Below, piece after piece: positions 36,678 through 45,062 of a DNA stretch of 64,000 nucleotides. The notes below the pieces were generated by a model. The model was given only the letters and a program-made list of their open reading frames with translations, was not told the origin of the DNA and did not search any database. The position numbers were made by a program, and so were the translations under genes. The first letter of the stretch is position 1, and every line of letters starts with the position of its first letter. Location: assembly GCF_000167195.1 (NCBI RefSeq), contig NZ_AADV02000004.1, positions 57,979 to 121,978 on the forward strand, read 5' to 3'. This DNA comes from Crocosphaera watsonii WH 8501. Its GTDB lineage: Bacteria > Cyanobacteriota > Cyanobacteriia > Cyanobacteriales > Microcystaceae.

Positions 36678-39600
36678 CTAGAAAATGAAATTGGCTGAAT
36701 CATTCACTTCTGCAACGGATGTATTTTGGAGAATAATAAATGGGATGCCAAAAATGGTTACGCTGCTTCCCGTTGACAAGGGTTGAACCCCGACAACTCC
36801 AGTGGCTAAACCATCGCTACCGCCTTGCCCTAACGCCGTCATAATGTCGCTTAGGTCAATTTTGTCTCCATTATCAAAGTCTGTAATAATGTCGCCAGCA
36901 TCGCCAAAAGTTTCATATTTGAAGATGTCGTCACCACCATTACCAGTGAGAATATCACCTCCACCTTTTCCAATAATCACATCATTATTATTGGTTCCCA
37001 CTAGGATGTCAGGATTAGGAGTTCCTAAAATTTCTGTGGGTTGCTCACTCGGTTTTTCCTGAGTGACTAGAGATAAACTATCACCATCAGCTACTAATGT
37101 TAGTTCTAAGCCATTACCCAGATCAATATTTGTAAAGTCCAAGCTGTTGCTGATACTACTAGCTGTGGCAATCTCAAATACATCCCCTAGTTGGGCGCTG
37201 AAACCATTTAAGAATGACACCTGTAAGGTTCCGTCAAAGACTGCAGCACCAGTGATGGCCAGTTGGTCAAAAGCGGTTGTACTGCCCAGTTCGATATTGA
37301 GGATACTGTCATCTGTTTGGGTGTAGTTCCCTGCGATCGCCAAGGTACCTGTATTCAAATCTGCCGCAATTTCGGCATTGAAATTGAGATCCCCACTGAT
37401 GGTGCCAAAACCTGTTAGAGTACCACCCTCAAAGACAAGATCAGCCGCGCTAAACGTTCCCCCTGACAGAGCAGTGGTTCCCCTAAGTTGGGTGTAAGTC
37501 CCATCCGTTGCGATCGCCGATGTACCATCAACGGTAACGGTGCCATCATCATTGAACCAACTACCGCAAATGTGGAGTTCAGCCCCATTTATAGCTTGTA
37601 GGTTGCCAGAATTGGTGAATTGATCCAGGCAAATGCTGCGGTTAGGTGTTCCCACAGTGCCGTCTGCGACAATCAAACCCTGATTGATTATATTACCGTC
37701 TCCATCTACATCAATGTCACTGCTAATAGATGTATTGGAATTGCTGAGGAAGACTTCGGTATTGGGTCCAAGGATAACATTGCTGTCGCCACTTACCCCA
37801 AACACTGCATCTGCTCCATCTAAGCGGATGATGTTGTTATTTATAGTCTGATCGCTGTCGATGCTCAAGATCGCATTTTCACCCAGATTCGCGTTACCTG
37901 TGAAGGTGGAACCGTTGGTTAGGCTAAGTATTGCTCCGTTGACACTGTTAAGATTGAGATTGCCTTGAACATCTACATCATCTAAGACATTATTACCATT
38001 ACCAACAACTAACTGGGTGTCATCACCAAAGGTAATAGTTCCCCCGGTTATGGTGCCACCATTGAAGGTTGGAGAACCCGTGTTGTTATTAAATGTGTAG
38101 CTGCTATTACTATTGTCCCAGTCATAGTCTTGCAATATTAGTTGTCCTCCCTCACTATTATCGATGGTGCCAAGGTCAACAGTATTGAAACTACCCTGAA
38201 GTACGACAGTAGAATTAACATCAATATCAATAGTGCCACCTGTATTACTCCAATCTCCGAGAACATTGAGGATAGAACCGTTGGCAACCTGAATAACTCC
38301 TTCGTTGTTAAAGACATCCACATCAATGCTGCGATCGCCTGGTCCATCGGCAACAATTAAGCCCTGGTTAACGATATTGCCGTCTCCATCTACATCAATG
38401 TCACTGCTAATAGAGGTATTGACATTTAGCAAACTTACTCTGGAATTGGCTCCAATGATGACATTGCCATCCCCACTAACACCAAACTTAACCCCTGGTC
38501 CGTCTAAATCAATGATTGTATTATCGATGGTTTGGTCGCTGTCGATGCTCAGAATGGCATTTTCCCCTAGATTGGCATTACCTGTGAAGGTGGAACCGTT
38601 GGTTAGGCTAAGTCTTGCTCCGTTGACACTGTTAAGATTGAGATTACCATCAACATCCACATCGTCTAAAACATTATTACCATTACCAACAATTAACTGA
38701 GTGTCATCACCAAAGGTAATAGTCCCCCCGGTTATGGTGCCACCATTGAAGATCCCGGAACCTGTGTTGTTATTAAATGTGTAGCTGCTATTACTATTAT
38801 CCCAGTCATAGTCTTGGAATATTAGTTGTCCTCCCTCACTATTATCGATGGTGCCAAGGTCAACAGTATTGAAACTACCCTGAAGTACGACAGTAGAATT
38901 AACATCAATATCAATAGTGCCACCTGTATTACTCCAATCTCCGAGAACATTGAGGATAGAACCGTTGGCAACCTGAATAACTCCCTCGTTGTTAAAGACA
39001 TCTACATCAATGCTGCGATCTCCTGGTCCATCGGCAACTATGGTTCCTTGGTTAATGATATTACCGTCTCCATCTACATCAATGTCACTGCTAATAGAGG
39101 TATTTACATTTAGCAAACTTACTCTGGAATTGGCTCCAATGATGACATTGCCATCCCCACTAACACCAAACTTAGCTCCGGGTTGTTCTAACCTAATGAT
39201 TGTATTATCGATGGTTTGGTCGCTGTCGATGCTCAGAATTGCATTTTCCCCTAGATTGGCATTTCTGGTAAAGGTAGAACCGTTGGTTAGGCTAAGTCTT
39301 GCTCCGTTGGCACTGTTGAGATTGAGATTCCCATCAACATCTACGTCGTCTAAAACATTATTACCACTGCCGATCACTAATTGAGTGTCATCCTCAAAGG
39401 TAAGGGAACCTCCTGTAACCGTTCCCCCGTTGAACTCCCAGCTACCTGTATTGTTATTGAAAGTGTAGTTGCGATCGCTATTATCCCAATTGTAATTTCT
39501 TAGGGGAACTTTACCACCGACACTATTATCTATATCCCCTAAATCATCGGTATTAAAACTATTATTGAGTTGCAGGGTTGAAGTAGCATCAATATCAATA

Positions 39601-41242
39601 GTGCCTCCTGTATTACTCCAATCTCCGAGAACATTGAGGATAGAACCATTGGCAACTTGAATCACCCCTTCGTTATTAAAGACATCCACATCAATGCTGC
39701 GATCGCCTGGTCCATCGGCAACAATTAAGCCCTGGTTAACGATATTGCTGTCTCCATCCACATCAATGTCACTGCTAATAGAGGTATTTACATTTAGCAA
39801 ACTTACTCTGGAATTGGCTCCAATGATGACATTGCCATCCCCACTAACATCAAACTTAGCCCCGGGTTGTTCTAACCTAATGATTGTATTATCGATGGTT
39901 TGGTCGCTGTCGATGCTCAGAATGGCATTTTCCCCTAGATTGGCATTTCCGGTAAAGGTAGAACCGTTGGTTAGGCTAAGTCTTGCTCCGTTGACACTGT
40001 TAAGATTGAGATTACCATCAACATCCACATCGTCTAAAACATTATTACCACTACCGATCACTAATTGAGTGTCATCCTCAAAGGTAAGGGAACCTCCTGT
40101 AACCGTTCCCCCGTTGAACTCCCAGCTACCTGTATTGTTATTGAAAGTATAGTTGCTATTGCTATTATCCCAATTGTAATTTCGTAGGGAAACTTTACCA
40201 CCGACACTATTATCTATATCCCCTAAATCAATTGAACCATTAGCAACTTGAATCACCCCTTCGTTATTGAATACATCCACATCAATAGTGCGATCGCCTG
40301 GTCCATCGGCAACGATTGTTCCTTGGTTAATGACATTACCATCCCCATCCACTTCTACATCACTGCTAATAGATGTATTAGCTTCTCCTAAGACTAAACG
40401 GGAATTGCTCCCTAAAATAAGGTTAGCATCACCACTCACCCCGAAGGTTGCACCACTTCCTGAAAGGTTAATTTCAGAATCGTTGAGGGTTTGATCACTT
40501 TCGATACTGAGAATTGCATTGTCCCCTAAATTGGCGTTGCCGGTAAAGCTAGAACCATTGGTAAGTCTCAGTCTTGCCCCATTGAGACTATTAAGATTGA
40601 GATTACCATCAACATCCACATCATTAAGAACATTATTGCCATTACCAAAGACTAAACAGCTACCTTCGCTAAAGATCAGGTTTCCTCCTGTAATCGTCCC
40701 TCCGTTGAATTCCCAATCTCCTGTGCTGTTATTCCAGGTATAACTACTATTACTGTTATCCCAGTTAAAGTTTTCTAGGCTGAATCTTCCTCCGGCACTA
40801 TTATCTATGTCTCCTAAGTCAATGGTATTGAAGCTATTACTAACAATTAGGGTGGAGTCTTTATCTATGTCGATACTTCCCTCTGTATTGCTCCAGTTAC
40901 CTAGTATATTGAGGATTGAACCATTGGCAACTTGAATAATTCCTTGGTTATCGAAAACGGCTACATCAATGGAACGATTAGGATTACCGTTACTACCATC
41001 GGCGATAATTGTACCTTGGTTAATGAAGTTATCGTTACCGTTGACTGTAACATCACTACTAATGCTGGTGTCGGAGTTACCAAGGATAAGTTGAGAACCG
41101 GCACCGAGAATAACATTGTTGTCACCACTAACTTCAAATCTTGCCCCTGGACCTCCTAAGTCAATTACAGAGTTATTAATGGTTTGATTGGTGGCAATGT
41201 TGAGAATTGCACCGTCACCCAAATTGGCGTTACCAATGAATT
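36678..41242 (-). pseudogene. Giant repeat protein with RTX C-terminus, N-terminus removed
   Basis: About 1,520 residues remain. Six units of roughly 225 residues (the first partial, the second with an internal deletion) share blocks such as GNANLGENAILSIDSDQTI, GVSGDGNVIIGANSRVSLL, INQGTIVADGPGDRSIDVDV and LGDWSNTGGTIDID. The pattern is that of beta-helix adhesins of the filamentous-haemagglutinin kind. The C-terminal part has calcium-binding nonapeptides (GTPNPDILVG, GGGDILTGNGGDDIF) that indicate type I secretion. The gene starts abruptly at the IS edge (41243) with no signal or start of its own. Units are alike at nucleotide level, indicating recent homogenisation. Confidence 0.85.
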
Positions 41243-41265
41243 GGACTTTGGACAAAAAAAGTTTG

Positions 41266-41286
41266 TTAGCGTATATTTTACGCTAA
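41266..41286. promoter_or_regulatory. Palindrome TTAGCGTA-N5-TACGCTAA, left end
   Basis: Exact 8-bp arms, spacer TATTT, 23 bp inside the left terminus of the IS. A likely transposase or regulator binding site. Confidence 0.8.
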
Positions 41287-41368
41287 ACTAAAATCCCAAA
41301 ATATCGGCTCTGTATCAGTCAATAAAATTTGCTGACAAATAGGGCTAATCTATAGATTCTGAGGAAAA

Positions 41369-42808
41369 CTAAGGAGCTTTTAAGTTTTCAGTTGATTTTT
41401 TGCTCCCTTTCTTGATAACATCATGACGAGTTCGTGGGGCTTTTTTGTAACCTTTAATACGTCCGGAAGAAAAACCTCGACGTTTGGGAAATTTGGCAAA
41501 AGTCCCCAAGGTCGTAATTATTCTTGAAAAGTCTCTTTGAACTAGACTAGGGGTGATTTTGATGGATTTATTAGTCTTCAAATACTGTTCCCAATCACGG
41601 GGTAAAACCACAGCTAATTTTCTGGCAGCCCACAAATTTACATAAGAAAGAAGTGTTAGTTTAAACCAATTTTCTTCATGATGTACATCGGGAGTTAAAT
41701 AAGATGTCATCAATAATCTTTGTTTACCAAATCGAAAAAGATGTTCCATGTCATAACGTTGTCGATAACACTGATAACAATCAACTAAACTTAACTCATC
41801 GCGCCGAGAACCAATAACAATAAGCCACATAGGTTTCCAAATACTATTTCTTTCTTGAGCTCTGACAACAATCTGGAGTAAAGTAAAGGGGTGATTTTTC
41901 ATTTTATAGTTTTTAGTTCCTCTCATTAACATCTGTTTCCATCCCGAAATAGTCACTGTTAATTGACGACCTTTTTTCGTTGTAAAGGGAACATGATGAA
42001 CTTCATCAGGTTCAGTCCAAGTTTGGTCATCTTTAAGGTCAAATTTATCCCCATACCAACGGGGATGTCCCGAAGTTTTGGCTTGATTTTGGTCCCGAAT
42101 AAATTGACGATAAAAAACTCGGTCAATTCTAACTCTTGTAATAGTAACTACGTCTTCATGCTTAACTTGTTCCCCAATAAAATCCTTTTGGCTGTAGTCA
42201 CTATCAGCCACTAAGACAGATAATTTATCAGAAAATAAAGAACTTTGCCAGATTTTTTTTAGTTGTTGATTGCCTTGATTTACTCCTTTATGTTTAGAGG
42301 GGACTAGCTCTCCTGATAAGGGGACAGCCCAAGGGACTTTTTCTGTGTCTATTTGGTCAGGTAAAGCGCAGACAACGGAATAACAATGTCCAATATTAAT
42401 GGGTTTATTTCCCTTAATTGGATTGGGGTAATGAATAAAGGTTTTATCCGCTAACGTTTCGGCAAACCGTCGTGGACAGGGAGTTCTGTCAATACCAAAT
42501 AAGTTATAATGTTTTGAAGTGGGAGGAATTGTTCTCGATACCGCTGAAAATAAAGTCTCAATTCTCTGTTCATAATTAGGGTCAGTTTGAGTGGGTAAAA
42601 ACTCTTGAATTCCTCTATATAAACTGTTATAATCTCTTCTAAATAAAGGATTGAGAGACAATTCAACGACTGAGTGAGCTTGTTGGTTACTGGAGAGGGC
42701 ATCGAGTAATTCTATAATAGTTTCTTTTCTAGCTTTTAGTCCTTGGAAGAGGTTAGACCTCCACACCAGGAATTCCTCGACAGACGTAGCCGTTTCATTT
42801 TTGGTCAT
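41369..42808 (-). CDS. Transposase of the palindrome-bearing IS
   Basis: A 479-residue DDE-type transposase. Blocks likely to hold the catalytic residues are LFGIDRTPCPRRFAETLAD near residue 103, LSVLVADSDYSQKDFIGEQ near residue 196 and CYQCYRQRYDMEHLFRFGK near residue 350 (the Y-R-E-like signature with Glu). The C-terminus is strongly basic (KKAPRTRHDVIKKGSKKS). A complete frame with ATG and stop suggests it can still be made. The start lies 24 bp from a palindrome shared with the IS ends, which may serve as its operator. Confidence 0.88.
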   Translation of the reverse strand: MTKNETATSVEEFLVWRSNLFQGLKARKETIIELLDALSSNQQAHSVVELSLNPLFRRDYNSLYRGIQEFLPTQTDPNYEQRIETLFSAVSRTIPPTSKHYNLFGIDRTPCPRRFAETLADKTFIHYPNPIKGNKPINIGHCYSVVCALPDQIDTEKVPWAVPLSGELVPSKHKGVNQGNQQLKKIWQSSLFSDKLSVLVADSDYSQKDFIGEQVKHEDVVTITRVRIDRVFYRQFIRDQNQAKTSGHPRWYGDKFDLKDDQTWTEPDEVHHVPFTTKKGRQLTVTISGWKQMLMRGTKNYKMKNHPFTLLQIVVRAQERNSIWKPMWLIVIGSRRDELSLVDCYQCYRQRYDMEHLFRFGKQRLLMTSYLTPDVHHEENWFKLTLLSYVNLWAARKLAVVLPRDWEQYLKTNKSIKITPSLVQRDFSRIITTLGTFAKFPKRRGFSSGRIKGYKKAPRTRHDVIKKGSKKSTENLKAP

Positions 42809-42832
42809 TTTTAAAATTTATTACCTTATAAA

Positions 42833-42853
42833 TTAGCGTAATATATACGCTAA
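42833..42853. promoter_or_regulatory. Palindrome TTAGCGTA-N5-TACGCTAA between divergent genes
   Basis: Exact 8-bp arms with spacer ATATA. It sits in the 79-bp gap between the transposase start (42808, leftward) and the passenger start (42888, rightward), an ideal place for an operator acting on both. Confidence 0.8.
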
Positions 42854-42887
42854 CATCAAAAAAGGTTGTTTGTTACAGTTAAGGCTA

Positions 42888-43283
42888 ATGTCATAACATT
42901 CCGAACTTAAGACCAGTCAAGATGTCCACCTGAGAGCCAAACAAATTAAGAGTCTAATTCGCTCTCTTAAACAGAAAATAAAGAAAATTGAACGGGAAGG
43001 GGAAGTAGCACCAGCTAATTGTCATATTATTCGTTATCAGGTTAATGGAAAGGGAACAATCTACTGGTATTATAAACTACAGGCTGCTGAATCAATTTTT
43101 CCTATGGCCACTAATAATGAGAAAAAAACCAAATATAAATATTTAGGACGAGCCGGAAGTTCTGCTCATATTGATGCTGTAGAAAAACTCACTAGAAGAA
43201 ATCTCATTGATGAATTAGAACGAGTCATTCAATCTCTAACGGAAAGCTACTTAGATATCTATATTGGAACCGAAACTGAATGA
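42888..43283 (+). pseudogene. IS passenger protein of about 131 codons with a stop at codon 3
   Basis: ATG-TCA-TAA at 42888-42896, then a long open frame: HSELKTSQDVHLRAKQIKS, LIRSLKQKIKKIEREGEVAP, CHIIRYQVNGKGTIYWYYKL, TKYKYLGRAGSSAHIDAVEK and LIDELERVIQSLTESYLDIY, ending TGA at 43281. The third codon was probably CAA. The N-terminal helix is Lys-rich and could contact DNA; the middle looks like a compact beta region with many aromatics. I do not recognise the family. It is divergent from the transposase. Expression would need readthrough or an internal start. Confidence 0.6.
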
Positions 43284-43371
43284 AGCTATTTAATATTTAA
43301 AATCCCCTAAAAAGATGGAAAGAGAGTTTTTAAAATCACCTTAATTCTCTATTTTAGCTCTGGAGGTATGT

Positions 43372-43392
43372 TTAGCGTAAAATTTACGCTAA
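43372..43392. promoter_or_regulatory. Palindrome TTAGCGTA-N5-TACGCTAA, right end
   Basis: Exact 8-bp arms, spacer AAATT, 23 bp inside the right terminus, the mirror position of the left copy. Confidence 0.8.
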
Positions 43393-43415
43393 TAATTGTT
43401 TTTTATCCAAAGTCC

Positions 43416-43746
43416 AATTATGATCCAGAGAAGATTATTCGCGGAGGACTGGCTGACGAACGCTTCCTTGCTTATGCCCATCATATTCTTGAGATCGGTG
43501 AGTTATTCGATTTTATCGTTATTGACGGAATGGCACGGCGACTCTGTACTTTTTTGGCAGTCAACTACCTTAAACCCACAGGATTCATTATTTTGGATAA
43601 CAGTAATCGCAGCGATTACGATCTCGCTTATATATTACTCGAAGAGGCTGGGTTCCGACAGATTCCATTCTGGGGTTTAGTGCCAGGGGCAAACTTTTTA
43701 ACCTGCACATCATTCTTCACACGATCCCTTGAACTTTTACCATCTA
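43416..43746 (+). pseudogene. C-terminal fragment of a SAM methyltransferase
   Basis: About 110 residues remain between two IS elements: NYDPEKIIRGGLADERFLAY, then LFDFIVIDGMARRLCTFLAV, YLKPTGFIILDNSNRSDYDL and AGFRQIPFWGLVPGANFLTC. FIVIDG and GFIILDNS match the later motifs of class I methyltransferases often found near glycan or natural-product genes. Motif I is lost at the left IS. At the right end the frame would stop at once (LELLPSR-stop) if the IS630 copy were removed, so the C-terminus may be native. Confidence 0.7.
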
Positions 43747-43774: not shown

Positions 43775-44416
43775 TCACTTATGATCTTTAAAGCCCTTAA
43801 ATTTCCAAACGAACGGCTTAGCAAAATGTTGATTAAAGTAATCAATAAAATTGAGAATTTTTTGGGATAGTTCTTCAGTTGAACGGACAGTAATTCTTTT
43901 GAGTAAACGCCTGACTAAGATCGAAAACCAACACTCAATTTGATTAAGCCACGATGTATGTTTGGGAATATAAACAAAGCGAATTCGATGAGATTCATCT
44001 GATAAAAAATCTGCTCTGCTGTCCATAGATTGCAAAATCCCCTCCTTTCCTTTTCTCCCCAAATCAATAGTAATTCCACAGCTTTCTGCTACTAATTTGA
44101 CTAAGCTTTCCGATTTATGAGTGTTGAGTTTATCTACAATAAAAATCCATTCTGCTTTTTCATCAATCTTAATCGTTCTCTGGATATGTTCAGAAAAATC
44201 TTGTTCTGTTCTTGTCGGTCCAATAGAGGGACTAACAACTTTTCCTCTTGCCACATCCCAGTTCGCAATCAAGCTTAAAGTTCCGTGTCTTTCATATTCA
44301 AATTCGATTTTTTCTACTTGCTTAGGCTTGATTCTTTTGTTCGGAAATAATCTCTCAAGAGCTTGAATCCCTGTCATTTCATCTGTACTAATTAAATGAA
44401 TTCCTTGTTCTAACAA
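43775..44416 (-). CDS. IS630 transposase, orfB part, copy A
   Basis: The 213-residue catalytic half. The DDE residues are in LISTDEMTGIQALE (first Asp), WIFIVDKLNTHKSESL (second Asp) and the TSWLNQIECWFSIL block (Glu). The nominal start is a TTG; the frame is open further upstream, so the protein is probably made as a fusion with orfA by frameshifting. Differences from copy B include Lys versus Gln after FIVD. Confidence 0.92.
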   Translation of the reverse strand: MLEQGIHLISTDEMTGIQALERLFPNKRIKPKQVEKIEFEYERHGTLSLIANWDVARGKVVSPSIGPTRTEQDFSEHIQRTIKIDEKAEWIFIVDKLNTHKSESLVKLVAESCGITIDLGRKGKEGILQSMDSRADFLSDESHRIRFVYIPKHTSWLNQIECWFSILVRRLLKRITVRSTEELSQKILNFIDYFNQHFAKPFVWKFKGFKDHK

Positions 44417-44480
44417 AGTTTTAGCTTCTTGATGAAGTTCACAGATATATTTGACTTGCTTTTTAAATTTTAAGGGATCA

Positions 44481-45062
44481 TCAATTTTGGCATTTAACCA
44501 GTAACGAACGAGATGTGGTTGTAATGTCGCTTCTTTTTAAAAAACGCCCCACACTACGGGGGGAAATCTTTTCGACAATTCCTCTTTTTATGGCTTCATC
44601 CGCCAACTCTGAAGGTGTCCAATGGCTCACTGGTCTGTCTGATTTTTCACATTCTTCACAAGCGATCGCTACAATCTGGACTACTTGTTCGACCGTAAAG
44701 GATTTTGTTGTTCCAGGTCTTGGGCGATCGCTTAAAATTCCTTTGATCAAGACCATTAATGCTTTCTCCGTTACCTGTTGTTCTTCGGCGGCACTCAGTT
44801 TTTCTCTCTCCTCAAACCATCGCGATCGCCACTGACGCACTTGTACTCGGTCTAATTCTAATCTTCGACTAATCGAACTATTGCTCTCTCCTGATGCTGC
44901 GGCTAAGATTAGCTTGGCTCGTCTAACAAGGCGATAGGGGTTTGTTGTCCCTCTCACTATTTGTTGGAGTACTGTTTTCTGTAGGTTGGAGAGGTTAATT
45001 GGCAATGCTTTTATCATGGACATCAACTTCGAGATTCTTCCGTTAGTTTCATTGAAACACAT
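44481..45062 (-). CDS. IS630 transposase, orfA part, copy A
   Basis: The 193-residue N-terminal half with a helix-turn-helix: LVRRAKLILAAASGESNSSI and RRLELDRVQVRQWRSRWFE. The second part has WTPSELADEAIKRGIVEKIS. It ends out of frame with orfB: after VGRFLK, a T6A5 tract would need a +1 shift to continue as EATLQPHLVRYWLNAK into orfB. The identical tract in all copies suggests programmed frameshifting or transcript slippage. Confidence 0.92.
   Translation of the reverse strand: MCFNETNGRISKLMSMIKALPINLSNLQKTVLQQIVRGTTNPYRLVRRAKLILAAASGESNSSISRRLELDRVQVRQWRSRWFEEREKLSAAEEQQVTEKALMVLIKGILSDRPRPGTTKSFTVEQVVQIVAIACEECEKSDRPVSHWTPSELADEAIKRGIVEKISPRSVGRFLKRSDITTTSRSLLVKCQN

Follow-up and report, generated by a model that had tools for sequence, protein, structure and literature searches.

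IS passenger genes are usually treated as cargo. For the toxin-antitoxin passengers of the Tn3 family a more active part has been considered: they were acquired repeatedly, sit mostly at one position and have been proposed to have a role in the regulation of transposition, according to the account in PMC7157771. The same account describes the TnpI protein of Tn5401: its sites lie in the promoter/irs region, with a copy of DR2 close to each transposon end, and it modulates the expression of both tnpI and tnpA (PMC7157771). Tn5401/TnpI (Tn3 family) is, by analogy, the closest known design to the element described below, the likeness being one of design and not of membership.

The element in the window and its three palindromes

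The window, i.e., the whole stretch of 64,000 nucleotides analysed here, contains an insertion sequence of 2177 bp with the terminal inverted repeats TTGGACTTTGGA (Table 1). The initial annotation gave its length as 2,173 bp, which has to be corrected once the inverted repeat is allowed to set the ends. Its main observation stands: the palindrome TTAGCGTA-N5-TACGCTAA is present exactly three times, with the spacers TATTT, ATATA, and AAATT as reported, and nowhere else in the window even when three mismatches are tolerated. Just 0.18 matches with up to three mismatches are expected in the window, and three were reached in none of 100 shuffles. Both terminal palindromes begin 25 bp inside the element, counted from the ends at 41241 and 43417, and not 23 bp as originally described. 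The third one lies between the two ATGs of the divergent transposase and accessory genes, in a gap (42809-42887) whose reported length of 79 bp is right. A sigma-70 promoter scan of this gap found none.

Table 1. Features of the insertion sequence, in window coordinates.
Feature	Position	Strand	Basis
Insertion sequence	41241..43417		ends aligned over 30 genome copies; TIR TTGGACTTTGGA
Left terminal inverted repeat	41241..41252	+	sequence; pattern search of ends
Left-end palindrome TTAGCG-N9-CGCTAA, 25 bp from end	41266..41286		exact-match search
DDE transposase, NCBIfam NF041680; Pfam DDE_5	41369..42808	-	ORF and profile search
Middle palindrome, inside the 79-bp intergenic gap	42833..42853		exact-match search; copy alignment
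Accessory gene, 131 aa in intact copies	42888..43283	+	ORF, copy alignment, family search, structure model
Right-end palindrome, 25 bp from end	43372..43392		exact-match search
Right terminal inverted repeat	43406..43417	-	sequence; pattern search of ends

The transposase scores 522.2 bits against NCBIfam NF041680, above the curated cut-off of 440 (whole protein). The accessory gene of the window copy begins with ATG TCA TAA (42888-42896), i.e., it has a stop at codon 3 (42894-42896), and the open frame after this stop covers 42897-43280. The left flank of the element is a repetitive frame of 1525 aa (36678-41255), and the right flank belongs to a different frame. Directly beside the element, two adjoining minus-strand frames (43775-45062) are found which, judging by eye, we take to resemble the split transposase of another, IS630-like IS.

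Copies within the genome

The exact palindrome has 164 copies in the genome (6,238,068 bases in 323 contigs), and 150 of these sit after an exact TTGGACTTTGGA end. Among the 40 candidates scored as copies of the element, 39 are full-length and one is near-full. The consensus of the middle palindrome over 30 aligned copies is TTAGCGGA-ATATA-TACGCTAA, and perfect 8-bp arms at this place are private to the window copy (1/30). Copies without the middle palindrome, which had been named as contrary evidence, do exist if the 8-bp arm is considered (29/30), and are few if only the 6-bp core TTAGCG-N9-CGCTAA is required, since it is intact in 26 of the 30. In terms of sequence comparison, this 6-bp core is the part of the palindrome that is conserved across species.

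The arms had been thought to be under selection. The between-species comparison supports this; copies within the genome do not. Over the 30 copies (L016-L045), 9 of the 36 half-site positions are variable vs. 121 of 2066 in the rest of the element (p=0.0002), and variant letters number 15 of 1080 in half-sites vs. 207 of 61,980 in the coding and remaining non-coding DNA. The excess of variation over the rest of the element is roughly two- to fourfold in half-sites, spacers and the terminal 24 bp. As the half-sites vary more than the remaining DNA, no purifying selection on the arms is visible within the genome, and judging arm selection from the genome's own copies was abandoned for this reason. 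A mutation hot spot, end-to-end gene conversion, sequencing error at hairpins or loss of binding may each account for the excess.

The accessory gene contains a stop in eight of the 30 aligned copies and none in the other 22, while the transposase gene contains one in 12. Proteins acting in trans would be expected to leave such broken copies. A further three copies (L246, L247, and L248), each with its own flanks, have a common 152-bp deletion inside the transposase gene; provided that the draft assembly is correct, this suggests that they were mobilised in trans.

No consistent target-site duplication was found across the 30 copies, four of which have flanking repeats of 6-7 bp at the boundary, and target-site duplication was dropped as a family criterion. 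The right flank of L246 is the same as that of L019. Recombination between copies or assembly joins would explain both the inconsistent duplications and this common flank, and a target duplication may be hidden by the draft assembly and inter-copy recombination.

The accessory protein family

Of the 291 genomes of the order, 48 encode homologues of the accessory protein, among them the genome of the window, and the gene is often multicopy. In the species-level genome collection, 152 stretches encode an accessory relative; the 80 that were kept have cyanobacterial titles in all cases but one, which is labelled as a Gracilibacteria MAG. The gene is also present in 38 plasmid records, whose names all give cyanobacterial genera; hypothetical protein is the annotation of 23 of the 25 plasmid matches listed. 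Phage records searched with the accessory protein gave no match.

Distant relatives of the accessory domain were seen in other cyanobacterial orders (L292-L312), mostly within larger, stop-to-stop frames of about 110-250 aa, some of which carry the motifs YWYNKL and HLGK. Two loci, L121 and L122, have the accessory gene and the right-hand palindrome with no classified transposase beside them; the frames flanking the gene there presumably resemble RebB-type R-body proteins.

Comparison of 20 accessory members with Pfam, NCBIfam and PHROG gave no convincing match, and no recombinase is among the matches listed. A similar YW/GK motif had suggested kinship with DUF6788 (PF20586). This found no support: hhalign of the accessory protein with two DUF6788 proteins, the only sequences used in this profile comparison, aligned 6 columns with a probability of 0.9%, and PF20586 is absent among the matches listed for the 20 members (25 of 36 families). 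The accessory gene has dN/dS values of 0.06-0.59 in 10 hand-picked pairs, which indicates purifying selection in these.

Modelled with confidence (mean pLDDT 91.7), the protein has a helix-three strands-helix arrangement: strands 42-50, 55-63, and 80-84 are located between two long helices, and residue 82 belongs to the third strand. Searches of solved and of viral structures gave no significant match to this fold, and no similarity to a known DNA-binding fold was seen in the structure lists returned; a second comparison with the PDB produced tied matches of middling Z only. A prefoldin-like coiled coil was considered as a candidate fold.

Recurrence beside unrelated transposases

The layout was initially described for one IS. 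This scope is too narrow, as the layout recurs in many cyanobacterial IS belonging to several families. We assembled 140 loci, 60 fetched and 80 from the species-level collection (some genomes are in both sets), and removed 30 with identical accessory DNA before counting sites, which left 110 non-redundant loci. The accessory gene lies beside six transposase groups: NF041680, IS4 NF033592, IS4 NF033590, ISKra4 NF033572, IS1182 NF033551, and an IS701-like group which is below the IS701 cut-offs but has a Pfam DDE domain. The presumed seventh group is represented by an unnamed 528-aa protein with no NCBIfam match and DUF6399 as its only Pfam domain. We presume a transposase here, as the element occurs repeatedly and is flanked by 8-bp duplications. 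No classified transposase is next to the accessory gene in 21 of the 110 loci. Accessory and transposase genes are on the same strand in the ISKra4 and NF033590 loci examined and divergent in the other groups.

The tree of accessory proteins has 103 rows (102 loci and the genome's own; duplicates and frames shorter than 95 or longer than 190 residues or lacking a stop were left out) and many open forks. Both NF041680 and ISKra4 elements are found in two separate places of this tree, and the transposase label requires 9 changes for 7 states, which makes it probable that the accessory gene has passed from one IS family to another. Among L083-L085 and L103-L105, the terminal direct repeats, read by eye, are 8 bp long in the elements of the 528-aa DUF6399 protein and 10 bp long in IS4 NF033592 elements, and hence the accessory gene imposes no single target length.

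The 21-bp site

The site common to these elements can be written as TTNGCG-N9-CGCNAA. With one mismatch at most, 66 of 109 non-redundant loci have it 20-131 bp ahead of the accessory start and 90 of 108 have it 340-500 bp beyond this start, and it is missing in 43 and 18 loci, respectively; the background is 7 in 2923 windows of 111 bp, while the right-hand search window was 160 bp. About 0.2 exact sites are expected in total over the 60 loci L076-L135. The middle site is present in 16/18 loci of the main ISKra4 group, in 6/6 and 5/6 loci of the two sets of the 528-aa group, in 3/4 loci of IS1182, 6/9 of NF041680, and 12/22 and 10/16 of the IS4 groups. In the IS701-like group, TTNGCG was found at the middle position in 0/6 and at the right in 1/6 loci, and some members have TTCTCT-N9-AGAGAA at both places. 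The IS4 elements of genome G120 possess a looser palindrome with TTAGCG inside. Exact left-end sites were registered in 33 of 102 rows, many loci ending too early on the left.

When perfect 6-bp inverted repeats of any sequence are considered, a spacer of 9 is the commonest at both places, with 7 and 11 close behind, which also arise from longer arms. Perfect or near-perfect inverted repeats with differing spacers could in principle be RNA hairpins, serving either as terminators or as leaders that shield the transposase from outside transcription. We regard this as quite improbable, since the same half-site letters and the 9-bp spacer are found across families, which is not required by pairing alone, and a scan of 42750-42950 detected no terminator-like site at the middle palindrome.

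Which protein reads the palindrome

The middle and right sites have the same half-site pair in 44 of 62 elements, vs. a mean of 22.8 and a maximum of 31 after shuffling, a concordance to be taken as descriptive because related elements are not independent. The half-site also co-varies with the accessory protein. Readable half-sites are available for 89 of the 103 rows: residue 82 is His in 82 loci with C at base 3 of the half-site and in one tie (L202, which has one A and one C half-site and was scored as A in one count and as C in the other), and Tyr in all six loci with A or T, i.e., the residue fits the base in 88 of 89 loci, with one tie. On a tree built with column 82 masked, residue and base each change twice, together; the column was chosen after scanning all accessory columns, and two independent events are too few for significance in a pairs test. 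Three more Tyr rows (L118, L124, and L136), whose base 3 was read as A by hand, are outside the strict count. A follow-up set of 20 loci contained seven already seen and 13 new ones, five of them without a site; the eight new informative loci all fit the rule (six His with C, two Tyr with A or T), most of them being related to earlier rows. Two follow-up loci have matches outside the usual places: the sites of L324 are at -450 and +548, and L320 has an extra weak match TTGGCG at -433.

Transposase loci lacking the accessory gene served as controls. Among the best-scoring 30 ISKra4 loci, the two with the accessory gene, which belong to elements already in the sample, have sites, and none of the 28 without it has an exact site (p=0.002), most of these 28 being only distantly related to accessory-bearing ISKra4 transposases. 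The 30 NF041680 loci include two complete accessory carriers, both with sites, and one locus (L233) with an accessory fragment and no site. The remaining 27 have no accessory sequence; 21 of them also have no exact site. Six do have one. Two of these, L238 and L244, are the nearest gene-less relatives (about 50% identical) and keep both end sites. The other four (L216, L217, L219, and L225) are distant and have one exact TTCGCG palindrome near one end, located upstream of the transposase in all of them except L219, where it is on the other side. Control in trans is possible in such single-site elements. Relatives without the accessory gene are multicopy per genome too, which implies that the gene is not essential for transposition chemistry.

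The initial annotation proposed that one protein, either the transposase or the passenger product, could bind both the ends and the promoter. Very probably this is so, with the accessory product favoured over the transposase by the comparisons above. Since the site accompanies the accessory gene from one transposase group to another, gene-less ISKra4 loci have no exact site and residue 82 co-varies with base 3, the reader of the palindrome is most likely the accessory protein and not the transposase, and it probably acts as a dimer. If the transposase itself bound the palindromes, as end-recognition enhancers and as its own operator, the position of the sites near both ends and their retention in L238 and L244 would be accounted for. 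However, the same site stands beside several unrelated transposase groups, is absent in its exact form from all 28 gene-less ISKra4 and 21 of 27 gene-less NF041680 loci, and has half-sites that vary together with an accessory residue. As the sites follow the accessory gene across transposases, binding by the transposase was not retained as the main reading, and we give it very little chance of being right. Sites without the gene in six of the 27 NF041680 loci might also be understood if a host protein bound them and the accessory gene were unrelated cargo. We find this hardly credible, given the lack of any exact site in the 28 ISKra4 loci, the concordance of half-sites within elements and the co-variation with residue 82.

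Terminal sites and the proposed mechanism

In nine elements the ends were set by copy comparison and trimmed by hand. Terminal sites are equidistant from the termini in five of them (25/25, 50/50, 49/50, 49/50, and 42/45 bp). One ISKra4 element with less certain ends has its sites at 49/38 bp; L083 (528-aa group) has one terminal site, 138 bp in, L093 (IS701-like, tested with TTCTCT) has one at 77 bp, and L124 has none by the same rule.

These positions bear on a rival reading in which the accessory protein acts on transcription alone, as repressor and roadblock: it would silence both genes from the middle site and block incoming transcription at the end sites, leaving the transposition complex untouched. 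Consistent with such a role, 66 of 109 loci have the site in front of the accessory gene, the left-end site is upstream of the transposase in same-strand ISKra4 elements, and three of the four single-site gene-less NF041680 elements have their palindrome upstream of the transposase as well. Yet a roadblock needs no equal terminal spacing, and the right-end site is downstream of the accessory gene whether the element is divergent or same-strand. We consider a pure repressor rather unlikely.

From the regularities described above we infer binding, dimerisation, autoregulation and action at the ends, and propose the following mechanism. A dimer of the accessory protein, held together by the long helices, would read the inverted TTNGCG half-sites 9 bp apart via its small beta-sheet, with residue 82 reading base 3 of the half-site. 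It would occupy three places: an operator before its own gene and one site inside each end. In divergent elements the operator is also upstream of the transposase, so both genes could be regulated from it. At the ends, the accessory protein may control the assembly of the transposase-end complex (access to the ends or their pairing), and transposition would thereby be tied to the accessory protein concentration. Gene and sites would need no particular transposase and could thus be taken up by several IS families.

That a dedicated accessory DNA-binding protein with three sites controls its own and transposase expression together with the end complex, and works with unrelated transposases, appears likely to us on the sequence evidence. 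A more far-reaching version is put forward tentatively, with somewhat less than an even chance: a transposase-agnostic module, composed of a new DNA-binding family and three sites, may plug into unrelated cyanobacterial DDE IS and govern both end synapsis and expression, its specificity being switched by a His/Tyr change that reads one half-site base. Whether the accessory protein promotes or restrains transposition we consider about equally probable, as high copy numbers would fit self-limitation and the matched end spacing would fit a helper role. In either case, a family that accompanies six transposase groups, presumably seven, and brings its own end sites is more likely to be part of the transposition machinery or its control than cargo.

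The accessory family offers an easily tested DNA-binding candidate with a predicted specificity residue, and it may explain how copy number is controlled in IS-rich cyanobacteria. It also allows one to ask whether a transposase-indifferent protein can handle end pairing.

Comparison with known systems

No description of the accessory family or of the three-site layout was found in the openly licensed PMC papers searched, in agreement with the view of the initial annotation that the layout is undescribed. The window transposase is distantly similar to the IS701 family, its best score being 78.8 bits with NF049999, below the cut-off of 170. The IS701 family, in the ISfinder sense, makes a 4-bp target duplication. 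The Mutator-type IS of the ISKra4/ISAzba1 kind are similar to the elements studied here in having extra genes, whose function is not known; unlike in our case, the available portion of their description mentions neither common palindromes nor a gene common to unrelated transposase families. The toxin-antitoxin passengers differ from the accessory gene in being different proteins within one transposon family, and the part of the Tn3 account dealing with them describes no matching site at both ends.

The accessory-bearing elements have palindromes at both ends and in the promoter region, where the sites of TnpI lie in Tn5401, and one protein is predicted to bind all three. TnpI at the ends is reportedly needed for transposase binding (Baum et al., 1999). 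The two systems differ in the protein and in its distribution. TnpI belongs to a few members of the Tn3 family and is a tyrosine recombinase, whereas the accessory protein has no recombinase among its listed Pfam, NCBIfam and PHROG matches and occurs beside several unrelated IS transposases. One gene and one palindrome set common to unrelated IS families suggest a control module that works with different transposases.
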